A DNA stretch of 64,000 nucleotides, taken from NCBI RefSeq assembly GCF_035621495.1, contig NZ_CP141821.1, positions 1,020,760-1,084,759 on the forward strand, written 5' to 3'. The notes beneath the pieces were generated by a model, which worked only from the letters and a program-made list of their open reading frames with translations, was not told where the DNA came from and ran no database searches. Positions within the stretch are counted from its first letter, which is position 1. Each line of letters starts with the position of its first letter. Positions 7,245 through 61,045 of the stretch are shown one piece after another. Origin of the DNA: Thermococcus sp. SY098. GTDB taxonomy: Archaea; Methanobacteriota_B; Thermococci; Thermococcales; Thermococcaceae. Both the position numbers and the translations under genes were made by a program.

Positions 7245-8582
7245 ATGGTGAAGAGACCTGTTGTTAAAGAACTTCCCGGGCCGAAGGCAAAAGAGGTTAT
7301 TGAGAGGAACTTTGAGCTTTTAGCAGTTACGACCCAAGATCCGGATGCCTTGCCAATTGTTATCGAGAGAGGAGAAGGAATTATGGTCTACGACGTTGAT
7401 GGCAATGCTTTCTATGACTTTGGAAGCGGTGTTGGTGTTCTTAATGTTGGACATGTACACCCACGGGTCATTGAGGCTATAAAAAGACAAGCCGAGAAGT
7501 TCACGCACTTTGCCTTAAACGATTTCTTCTATGAAAACGCTGTAATCCTGGCTCAAAAGCTTGCTGAGCTTTCTCCAGGAGACTTTCCAAAGAAGGTAGT
7601 CTATCAGAACAGCGGTGCTGAAGCTAACGAAGTTATGATGAAGCTTGTCAAGTACGGAACAGGAAGGAAGAGATTCATAGCATTCTACCATGCATTCCAC
7701 GGAAGAACACAGGCTGTTCTCAGCTTAACGGCAAGCAAGTGGGTTCAGCAGGAGAGATTCTTCCCAACAATGCCCGGCGTTGAGCACGTTCCATACCCAA
7801 ACCCATACAGAAACCCGTGGCACATTGACGGTTATGCCGATCCTAAGGAACTTGTAAACAGGGTCATAGAGTTCATTGAGGAGTATGTCTTCAGGCACGT
7901 TCCACCAGAGGAAGTTGGAGCAATTGTCTTTGAGCCGATACAGGGTGAAGGAGGCTACGTAGTTCCACCAAGGGAGTTCTTCAAGGAGCTTAAGAAGCTT
8001 GCAGACAAGTACGGCATTCTTTTGGCAGACGACGAAGTTCAGATGGGCGTTGGAAGGACTGGGAAGTTCTGGGCAATTGAGCACTTTGGAATTGCACCGG
8101 ACACAATTCAGTTCGGTAAAGCTATTGGTGGAGGAATTCCATTAGCTGGTGTCGTGCACAGAGCTGACATAGCTTTTGACAAGCCGGGAAGGCATGCATC
8201 AACATTCGGTGGGAACCCAGTGGCTATTGCTGCTGCTCTTGAAGTCGTCGAAATTGTCAAAGAGCTGTTGCCTCACGTTCAGGAAGTTGGCGATTACCTC
8301 CACAAGAGGCTCAAGGAGTTTGAGGAGAAATACGAAGTTATCGGCGATGCAAGAGGTCTCGGATTAGCTCAAGCGGTGGAGTTTGTTAAGAACAAGGATA
8401 CAAAGGAGAAGAACCCAGAGGTCAGGAACAAGGTTGTCAAAGAAGCCGCTAAGAGAGGTTTAATCCTCCTCGGCTGTGGTGACAACTCACTGAGATTCAT
8501 TCCACCATTGATCGTTACCAAAGAAGAGATTGATATCGCCATGGAGATTTTTGAAGAAGCCCTCAAAGCAGCCCTTAAGTGA
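7245..8582 (+). CDS. Class III aminotransferase, probable ornithine aminotransferase
   Basis: The 445-residue PLP enzyme has the class III core: NSGAEANE, the cofactor loop [41 protein letters not shown] and the Schiff-base Lys in QFGKAIGGG. From memory its N-terminus ([21 protein letters not shown]) and overall sequence resemble the Pyrococcus ornithine aminotransferase described from P. horikoshii rather than the related amino acid racemases, but the two groups are close. GGTGA ahead of ATG 7245 supports the start. Confidence 0.85.
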
Positions 8583-8642
8583 CCCCCATTTCTTATTTTT
8601 TAATTTCTAAACCGCTTGGATGCAAAATCTTTATAAATATCA

Positions 8643-8664
8643 ATTTCAAGTTTTAACTTGAAAT
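8643..8664. promoter_or_regulatory. 22-bp perfect palindrome at the ECF S-component promoter
   Basis: ATTTCAAGTT, two bases, then AACTTGAAAT form a perfect dyad with ten-base arms. A TATA-like CTTTATAAATAT lies at 8630-8641 and the ribosome site at 8676-8682, so the dyad covers the expected transcription start. This is where an archaeal repressor would act. The regulator is unknown; a ligand-responsive repressor of vitamin uptake is an inference. Confidence 0.65.
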
Positions 8665-8689
8665 CACTAATAAAGCGGAGGTGTGAAAT

Positions 8690-9292
8690 ATGGAGTTTGA
8701 GGCTATTGGAACATACGCTAAGCCAATTCTTGCACTCGCCGTTTTGGCATATTTTGCGTACATCTTTGTAATTAAAAAAGAAGAGTTCAAAAAAGCCCAA
8801 GTTGTTGCAATTTCAGCTGTTATGACAGCTTTAGTCACAGTTGCGACAATTGTAATTCAAGTTCCAACACCTCCAACAAGAGGATACATAAACCTTGGAG
8901 ACACAATGGTCATGCTGAGCGGTGTGCTGTTTGGTCCCCTTATAGGAGCATTTGCAGGCGGCTTTGGTTCAGCTCTGGCAGATGCGATTACAGGTTATGC
9001 CCACTGGGCACCTTTCACACTGATTATAAAAGGACTCGAAGGGCTGGTTGTAGGATACATATCATACAGAAGAGAAGATTTCACTGGGATACTCATAGGG
9101 ACTATAATCGGCGGATTCATAATGGTCTCCGGATACTTCCTTGTTGAAGTGTTCTTCTACGGTTATCCAAGTGCACTCGTTGAAGTTCCAGGAAATACAC
9201 TTCAAGCAGTCAGTGGCATAATTGTGGGTGGAGGAATTGGATATATAATAAAGAGAGGATATCCAGACATAATGAACCTCATCCAAACTTAA
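8690..9292 (+). CDS. ECF transporter S component
   Basis: The 200-residue membrane protein has about six hydrophobic segments. It has the S-component features RGYINLGDTMVMLSG and FGPLIGAFAGGFGSALADAITGY. These proteins bind a vitamin or similar small molecule and dock on a shared EcfA-EcfA'-EcfT module. No ATPase or T component is adjacent, so it must use an energising module encoded elsewhere. The substrate cannot be assigned. GGAGGTG precedes ATG 8690. The stop overlaps the stop of the convergent gene by four bases. Confidence 0.85.
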   Translation: MEFEAIGTYAKPILALAVLAYFAYIFVIKKEEFKKAQVVAISAVMTALVTVATIVIQVPTPPTRGYINLGDTMVMLSGVLFGPLIGAFAGGFGSALADAITGYAHWAPFTLIIKGLEGLVVGYISYRREDFTGILIGTIIGGFIMVSGYFLVEVFFYGYPSALVEVPGNTLQAVSGIIVGGGIGYIIKRGYPDIMNLIQT

Positions 9293-9570
9293 ACCTTCTG
9301 TATCTCCTCCCACATATCCTTTTCTTTAAAAAGAAGCCCGATTGATATCCTCCTTGATGCCCTTTTCAGCTGTCCCAGATATTGGGAATCAGCTATCACA
9401 GCATCAGAGTTGAGCTCTTTTATCTCATAAACGGCAAGATGACAATCTTTAAGCACTTCGGATGCATGCTTTAGGAACTCTGGACCTGCGAGCATTATAT
9501 CCGGATTTAAGCCTTCTTCCCTGAGCTCATTGATAGTTGTTTTCACAAGCTCGTAGATTTCTTCCTTCAC
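9289..9570 (-). CDS. Candidate A-domain (family 4) encapsulin-like protein
   Basis: The 93-residue protein has a helical N-terminus, then [38 protein letters not shown] and RRISIGLLF. This order of a GP-aromatic helix, a short strand and an exposed ADxxYLGQLK strand resembles the HK97 A-domain fragments called family 4 encapsulins, known from hyperthermophiles and recalled as occurring next to cargo genes including deoC. The GTG start overlaps the deoC TGA (GTGA), so the two are translationally coupled. The assignment is by remembered pattern, not by search. Confidence 0.6.
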
Positions 9571-10229
9571 CTCTTAGCACCCTCCACTATCTTCACTCCG
9601 CTCGATGTGCCGATTCTGTTTGCACCCGCCTTTATCATTTCTAAAGCCTGCTCGTATGTTCTGATGCCACCTGCTGCCTTAACTCCAAGTTTATCGCCTA
9701 CAACTCTTCTCATAAGCTTAACATCCTCTACTGTAGCTCCCCCAGTACCAAAACCCGTTGAGGTCTTTACAAAATCTGCTCCAGCTTCCATTGCCAGCTT
9801 ACATGCTATTTCCTTCTCTTCATCGGTTAGATAACAGGTCTCAATGATCACCTTGACTATAGCCCCTTTTTCGTGAGCAACTTTGACAACTTCTTCTATG
9901 TCTTTCCTAACATAATCGTAATCCCCGTCCTTCAGTGCCCCGATGTTTATGACCATATCAAGCTCATCTGCTCCATCTTCAAGGGCTTTCTTTGCCTCAA
10001 ATACTTTGACCTCCGTTGGTGTTGCCCCCAATGGGAATCCAATAACAGATGCCACTTTTATGTCCGTGCCTTTTAATGTCTCCTTTGCAAGCTTTACACG
10101 GTAGGGGTTAACGCAGACAGCATAAAAGCCGTACTTTTTGGCTTCCTCGCACAGTCTGATTATATCCTCCTTTGTTGCATAAGGCTTCAAATTGGTGTGA
10201 TCAATGTACTTGGCAATATCAATTTCCAT
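9567..10229 (-). CDS. deoC: Deoxyribose-phosphate aldolase
   Basis: The 220-residue class I aldolase cleaves 2-deoxyribose 5-phosphate to glyceraldehyde 3-phosphate and acetaldehyde. Visible motifs are [10 protein letters not shown], the Asp in [22 protein letters not shown], the Schiff-base Lys in [15 protein letters not shown] and [13 protein letters not shown] with a second active-site Lys. The length is normal for hyperthermophilic DERA. It is the promoter-proximal gene of a two-gene operon with the encapsulin-like protein downstream. Confidence 0.95.
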
Positions 10230-59686: not shown

Positions 59687-61045
59687 TTATTTTATTTTCT
59701 CAAAATCTCGCAAATCGAGTGCTAAAATATTTTCTCCCAATTTATCTTTTTTATTTAATCTTTTGGCAACTATGCCAAAGTAGTTTTCATAATCTTTCAG
59801 ACCTACAAGTTCAGCTTTCTTTCTTAAATCATTTAAAATACGCTTTGTTTCCCTCAGCGTCAAGTCTTTCCACTTAACCTCAACAAACAATACCTTCTTC
59901 TCATGTTCATTCAAAGCTATTAAATCAACTTCTTCTCCTCTATGCCACCATCTTCCAATCTTTGTAAAGTTGAAAGGTAGTAGATTCTTTTTGCTGAGCT
60001 CAATTAAAAGCTCTTGAGCCAATCTCTCAAAAGGTTTCCCCAAAAACTGATTGAAGTTTGCTCTGAAGTCTTCCAACGCTGCATTAATAAAGCCACTCTC
60101 AATTTCTTCATAGTACGGGTTAACAAACCGTGACCAGAACAAGAAATAGTTGTCAGCTATTTCATAGATTCCTCTTTTTCCGAAAAGAGGAACTATTCGC
60201 TTAACAATCCCCAACTCACTCAAAACTCTCAGATATGGTACCACTTGGTTTTCTTTAAGATAACAGAAATTCGCTATCTGCGTGACCTTTGTGTTTCCTT
60301 TTGCTATTGCTTCTAAGATAGCAAGATAAATAGATAACTCTCTAAGCTCTTCACTAAGCAGAGCTCTTGCCTCTCTAAATAGAAATGAGGATGAGTTAAA
60401 GAAGTTGTCAACGATTTCCTTTTCAATATTTTTGCCACTAAAGAATTCCAGATACTTGGGAACCCCATTAGTTACCCCATAAATTTTGAAAAGATCCTCA
60501 ATCTTTGAACCTTCAAACCACTCAAAAAGATGTTTAAATTTTAAAGGTGTCACTTTAATATTCGCATCTGTACGACCATAAATAGGACCCGAATACCTAA
60601 AGAACTCCTTTTCCATAAGAGACACATAGGAGCCAGAAACTACAATAAGTGCATTTAAATCTTTGTTTTCTTCAATAGCTCGTGATATTTCACTTAAAAT
60701 TCCTTCTTCTCTGCGGATTAAATAGGAAAGCTCATCGAGTATCAGAAGAAGCCTTTCTCTTTTGAGGGTCTTTAGTAGACTAAACAAAGATGGGAAATCT
60801 CTAATTTTAATGTTAACACCTAAAAGTTCTGAAATTTTCCTTGAGAGTAAATCAAAGTTGTATTCTCTCGGTTTATCCTCAAATATTACAAAAATTCTTT
60901 CCTTGTCTTTTGAAAACTCCTCCAAAAGTCTTGTCTTCCCAACTCTTCTTCTACCATAAACTAAAACAAACACCAAGCCTTCCTTTTTCCAAAGGTTTTC
61001 AAGCAAGTTCAACTCTTCTTTTCTATTTACAAATTTTCTAATCAT
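59687..61045 (-). CDS. Archaeal ATPase with DUF234 (nuclease-like) C-terminus
   Basis: The 452-residue protein has P-loop [14 protein letters not shown] (about 31-44), Walker [12 protein letters not shown], a winged-helix region ([29 protein letters not shown]) and a C-terminal domain with [14 protein letters not shown] and [10 protein letters not shown], an acidic-Lys pattern like PD-(D/E)XK nucleases. This is the widespread archaeal ATPase/DUF234 family, often linked to mobile DNA. The start is preceded by the AT-rich palindrome TAATCATGATTA (about 61053-61064) and no Shine-Dalgarno. Confidence 0.85.

Follow-up and report, generated by a model that had tools for sequence, protein, structure and literature searches.

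A conserved palindrome at the promoter of a solo ECF S component is probably the operator of a vitamin-B6 regulon in the Thermococcales

Introduction

The closest described systems are the bacterial regulons of PdxR, a regulator of the MocR family. In the passages of Suvorova and Rodionov (2016, PMC5320631) that deal with them, these regulons comprise pdxST, pdxK and pdxU, such that PLP synthesis and a B6 ECF S component are joined in one regulon, and ArgD-family aminotransferases are included as members. According to the same passages, Archaea have no MocR factors. For the Thermococcales, regulons of vitamin genes have been predicted, and the part of PMC10746257 that concerns P. furiosus describes RbkR and ThiR regulons and none for B6. 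Prokaryotic B6 transporters are counted as three in the pertinent part of PMC9997740, with substrates verified for two. Among the papers listed by our searches of the open literature, we recognised no archaeal B6 regulon or regulator; subscription papers and RegPrecise lay outside this scope, so a prediction may exist there.

Here, we analyze a palindrome at the promoter of an ECF transporter S component in Thermococcus sp. SY098. The window, by which we mean the whole 64-kb stretch of DNA that was analyzed (G000:C1:1020760-1084759), comes from a genome of 2.03 Mb. As in the PdxR regulons, the site appears to join PLP synthesis and a B6 ECF S component. Unlike them, it should be read by a regulator of another kind: given that MocR-type PdxR is reported absent from Archaea in the passages cited above, another, undescribed archaeal B6 regulator is implied. 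The RbkR and ThiR regulons resemble it as vitamin-gene regulons of the same order, but they have other target genes, and the thi promoters that we examined bear another palindrome. We conclude, with reasonable though not full confidence, that the palindrome serves as operator for a Thermococcales regulon of vitamin-B6 (PLP) homeostasis, which includes a B6 importer.

Results

The promoter region and its surroundings contain the following features.

7245..8582, + strand: class-III (ArgD-like) PLP-dependent aminotransferase gene, an upstream neighbour, not downstream of the operator
8630..8638, + strand: TATA-like box of the S-gene promoter, TTTATAAAT, assigned from sequence
8643..8664, no strand: operator-like palindrome, arms 8643-8652 and 8655-8664 with a TT centre
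8645-8662: conserved core of the palindrome, TTCAAGTTNNAACTTGAA, defined by comparison of relatives
8677..8683, + strand: ribosome-binding-site-like GGAGGTG, assigned from sequence and similar in relatives
8690..9292, + strand: gene for an ECF transporter S component of 200 aa, a predicted vitamin-B6 importer (PdxU-like)

Read directly, nucleotides 8643-8664 are ATTTCAAGTT-TT-AACTTGAAAT. A preliminary description had called this a perfect 22-bp palindrome covering the predicted transcription start of the S gene. Both 10-bp arms are indeed perfect, but the centre bases are not self-complementary, leaving 20 of the 22 positions symmetric. Four bases separate the palindrome from the TATA-like box and 25 separate it from the ATG (8690); a TTTTAA-type box is seen at a similar distance in the S-gene promoters of relatives. 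With transcription placed to begin ∼26 bp from the TATA centre, the start of the S gene is predicted near 8660, within the right arm, which agrees with the earlier placement.

Inverted repeats of this kind (arms of at least 10, gap of at most 6) number two in the 64-kb window, compared to 0.67 expected from 30 first-order Markov resamplings of the window (maximum of 2). As an isolated repeat, the palindrome is mildly unusual, near chance in the window alone. The sole other such repeat, TTCCTCTTTTTCCGAAAAGAGGAA, lies at 60169-60192. The preliminary description had proposed a search of the genome and its relatives for the same motif, and the two parts of this search came out differently. The rest of the window's genome contains no match within three mismatches of the palindrome's 20 specified bases. 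Looser searches of the same genome returned 16 matches when up to two mismatches were allowed in 14 specified bases of the core, equal to the reversed control (16), and 24 matches when up to three were allowed in 16 bases, compared to 49 for the reversed control. Hence no second copy was found at home; among relatives, conservation upstream of the orthologues is strong.

An orthologue of the S gene was found in 79 of 94 genomes of the family (78 with E values of 4.3e-50 or better, and one cut by a contig end); of the other genomes, eight contain distant matches only and seven contain none. We examined the DNA upstream of 70 of the 79 orthologues, using a score matrix trained on 22 S-gene sites (from genera g1, g2, g5 and g6) and 13 pdxS sites, which include four from g3 and one from g4. 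In shuffled upstreams, the 99% quantile of the best score is 0, i.e. ∼1% exceed 0. All S upstreams of g1 (7/7), g6 (1/1), g2 (3/3) and g5 (12/12) score above 10, making 23 of 23. The same is true of 24 of 39 upstreams in g4, which represent the fairer test, because no S site of g4 was used in training. In the Pyrococcus-like genus g3, the S-gene sites are degenerate, with 0/8 scoring above 10 and 7/8 scoring above 0, and at pdxS in this genus six of eight score above 10, four of the six being training sites. Across 14 representative upstreams from four genera, themselves training sites and aligned on the site, per-column conservation is 96% in the 18-bp site, compared to 64% before and 68% after it. 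Because the same place in the promoter is conserved across genera, we conclude from these alignments that the palindrome is a real operator, despite its near-chance frequency in the window.

The 94 genomes contain 41 exact copies of the core, CAAGTTNNAACTTG, compared to 18 of its reversed control. By our own count, the S gene accounts for 22 of the 41 and pdxS, the gene for the lyase subunit of PLP synthase, for 10; one of these ten (G083) sits at a contig end and was assigned by similarity, making it probable only. Six of the other nine were inspected: five fall inside coding genes or at their ends, and one lies downstream of a gene resembling serine hydroxymethyltransferase. The remaining three belong to G043, G072 and G089. 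Among 68 pdxS upstreams, taken from 72 genomes that carry the gene, 45 score above 10 and 49 score above 0. By eye, the palindrome in pdxS promoters directly follows a TATA-like box, and a second, weaker copy is commonly present ∼24 bp further. A PLP-synthase gene and a predicted B6 S component share an operator, as expected of a B6 regulon, and the palindrome is probably the operator of such a regulon, common to pdxS and the S gene. The preliminary description had envisaged a dedicated repressor that senses the transported compound. The operator-like character of the palindrome is borne out by the conservation across genera, but the site is not dedicated to the transporter, being common to pdxS in relatives. 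The preliminary description had also suggested that a biosynthetic gene carrying the motif could reveal the substrate, and this proved fruitful: since pdxS carries the same site, ligand and substrate are read as vitamin B6.

Two further observations concern the distribution of such sites. A different palindrome, near TTCAAATCnnnATCTGAA, is found at pdxS in G019, G020, G021, G030, G033, G042, G051, G056, G066 and G068. These genomes, several of them from g4, mostly have no S component, and the operator has perhaps been re-tuned. Secondly, the ecfA/bioY intergenic region of G013 contains a site of similar geometry with a matrix score of 16.1 (L467 2995-3012), which is absent from that region in the window's genome and in G022. 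It is perhaps a third target and perhaps a chance match; in some species, the regulon may extend to the energising module.

The two sites tend to be kept or lost together. In 50 genomes with both upstreams, and at a threshold score of 0, 39 have both sites, nine have neither, two have the pdxS site only (G012 and G060) and none has the S site only (Fisher 2e-8, with genomes taken as independent despite their relatedness). The nine double losses may represent few events. In those nine genomes, the S gene lies within ∼50 bp of a stop codon, apparently that of the aminotransferase gene (by eye). As for the genes themselves, pdxS (PF01680) is missing from the window's genome and from four of its six congeners (G087, G088, G089 and G092, of which G089 is 75% complete and G092 80% complete), and is present in G090 and G091. 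Loss of this partner gene accounts for the single site in the window's genome. The 75 genomes that are at least 90% complete include 11 without pdxS, 11 without an S orthologue and none without both, a complementarity that does not reach significance (Fisher p 0.15). Neither gene is present in G010 and G046, which are incomplete genomes.

These data bear on an alternative reading, namely that hydroxymethylpyrimidine or thiamin is the substrate of the S component and that the palindrome is a site for the thiamin regulator (ThiR). Several things speak for it: pdxS is often a neighbour of thi4 or thiC, a ThiL-like gene is transcribed divergently from the Pyrococcus-like S gene (by eye), and HmpT, the closest solved relative of the S component (see below), was initially taken for an HMP carrier, as recounted in part of PMC4860826. 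However, of 11 thi4 or thiC upstreams (representing nine intergenic regions), eight have B6-site scores of –7 or below, and the three that score high share their intergenic region with a divergent pdxS. The thi promoters that were captured bear another palindrome, of the CCAAAACTnAGTTTT type, roughly CAAAACTnAGTTTT (L163, L175, L177, L182, L186 and L204), which is likely the ThiR operator; in L161 and L172 the thi promoter was not captured, probably because the called start is too far upstream. Moreover, pdxS has its own copy of the B6 site even when it is downstream of thi4, and thiC and the S gene are both lacking in 4/75 near-complete genomes, compared to 0/75 for pdxS and the S gene. We therefore consider the thiamin reading unlikely.

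Slightly less likely still is that the palindrome acts as a general promoter element or RNA element (hairpin, terminator), with no specific regulator. Its overlap with the core promoter and its near-chance frequency in the window would fit this idea. But with transcription starting near 8660, as predicted, most of the palindrome would be untranscribed; a scan of 8400-9400 against Rfam gave no family at threshold, the sole match being a sub-threshold miRNA family; and 32 of the 41 exact cores lie at two functionally linked genes. An operator of pdxS and the S gene remains our preferred reading.

The preliminary description had recognised the S component as vitamin-type, and its match to PF07155 (E 3.2e-39; 135.1 bits versus a cut-off of 26.7) agrees with this. 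Among solved structures, the closest by sequence is 4hzu_S (HmpT), with E values of 3.8e-22 for the single sequence and 7.5e-28 for the profile; RibU comes next by profile (E 0.0012). The AlphaFold model (pLDDT 87) has EcfS proteins as all of its top structural matches, suggesting an EcfS membrane fold, and in this predicted structure 4hzu_S (Z 19.4, rmsd 2.6, 160 aligned) is well ahead of the next-best structure (Z 15.8). We take 4hzu to be the HmpT complex, an assignment with which the residue numbers agree.

HmpT/PdxU2, then, is the best match in both sequence and modelled fold. For the Lactobacillus brevis protein, the relevant part of PMC4860826 gives pyridoxamine as substrate, by mass spectrometry and simulation, and six conserved pocket residues (Glu41, His84, Gln87, Tyr120, Asn140 and Gln143). 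The window protein differs in being archaeal and, in the model, in having an extra N-terminal helix. At the six pocket positions, it has three identical residues (Tyr120=Tyr149, Asn140=Asn169, Gln143=Gln172), one conservative change (Glu41 to Asp71) and two replacements (His84 to Lys114, Gln87 to Glu117); a seventh residue, Trp76, is kept as Trp106. Across 70 orthologues from the Thermococcales, only Asn169 varies among the seven positions (62 Asn, 8 Asp). With His84 and Gln87 replaced and Glu41 changed to Asp, the exact vitamer may differ from that of HmpT. From this kinship, the S component is most likely a vitamin-B6 importer.

The Pfam name of PF07155 (ECF-type riboflavin transporter S component) might instead suggest a riboflavin transporter under RbkR, the predicted regulator of riboflavin genes in P. 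furiosus (PMC10746257, in the part cited above). This is highly improbable: PF07155 also contains PdxU and PdxU2/HmpT, as noted in part of PMC9997740; solved RibU is a weaker match than HmpT by sequence and by model; and the gene that shares the operator is pdxS.

As the preliminary description stated, no energising module adjoins the S gene. Its wider point, that the S component lacks such a module, needs qualification, since one elsewhere in the genome could in principle serve it. An EcfA-/EcfT-like pair lies beside a bioY-like gene ∼242 kb from the S gene, with PF02361 above cut-off there, and a CbiMNQO-like locus lies elsewhere in the genome; EcfT was named by Pfam, and the EcfA, bioY and CbiMNQO genes by eye. 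Given the EcfA-EcfT locus, the S component can plausibly draw on a shared module, perhaps the one beside bioY.

Gene neighbours were largely named by eye. The class-III aminotransferase gene lies directly upstream of the S gene in many of the Thermococcus-like loci examined, and a Bathyarchaeota locus (L013) has the S gene and then a class-III aminotransferase gene, as in Thermococcus. This association might be taken to mean that the operator, though real, senses a metabolite of the aminotransferase and not vitamin B6 itself, a notion we hold to be no less improbable than the riboflavin one, as the operator is downstream of the aminotransferase gene and is found again at pdxS, and no exact core among those inspected lies upstream of an aminotransferase gene. 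In seven Thermoproteota-type loci (L010, L012, L015, L016, L017, L021 and L027), the S gene is followed by an AIR-synthase/ThiL-like gene (by eye). Bacterial S-gene neighbours, also inspected by eye, include no B6 genes and give no hint of substrate. On the other side of the S gene in the window, and convergent to it, is a gene for a family 4B encapsulin shell protein (9289-9570, – strand; PF08967, NF041191), the start of which overlaps the end of a deoC-like gene (9567-10229, – strand; named by eye). In Pyrococcus-like loci, the S gene still has an encapsulin-like neighbour, but it is accompanied by a glyceraldehyde-3-phosphate-dehydrogenase-like gene (by eye).

To find candidates for the regulator, we set genomes without the site against genomes with it. 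HTH_3 matches in six genomes showed little difference in number or length between those that have the site and those that do not, as judged from the table only. Among the HTH_20 and HTH_24 matches listed for genomes that keep the site (G035, G013) or have lost it (G022, G024), no regulator was found; the HTH matches listed reached weak E values, with the extra loci read on the + strand only and the columns for other genomes incomplete. MarR_2 in two genomes gave no usable candidate, several loci being on the reverse strand with no protein recovered. An Lrp/AsnC protein encoded near EcfT (G013:C1:1056010) is 85% identical between two site-bearing genomes and 48-58% identical to the other two, compared to ∼67-89% for most other factors in that comparison. 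By eye, its HTH half looks conserved and its ligand-binding half diverged; with a conserved HTH half, it is expected to keep its operator. We regard this protein as a weak lead, not a claim.

Discussion

In the mechanism that we propose, a putative dimeric regulator would bind TTCAAGTTNNAACTTGAA between the TATA box and the transcription start. A factor covering TATA-proximal DNA and the start would block recruitment of polymerase, making repression the likeliest sign of control, and we infer that the regulator is most likely a repressor, with PLP or a related vitamer as its co-repressor. When the cofactor is plentiful, B6 supply would be shut at two points, synthesis (pdxS, where present) and uptake (the solo S component). 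The latter would act as a PdxU/HmpT-like binder of B6 vitamers, energised by the EcfA-EcfT module near bioY. In the window's genome, which is without pdxS, the uptake branch and one operator would remain. Whether the agent is an undescribed PLP-responsive factor, distinct from MocR/PdxR, that controls pdxS and the B6 ECF importer through TTCAAGTTNNAACTTGAA, and the importer alone in species without pdxS, seems to us evenly balanced.

For the organism, the predicted consequence is a need for external vitamin B6. More broadly, an archaeal S component gains a testable substrate, and the operator could be used as DNA bait for fishing out an archaeal PLP-sensing regulator.
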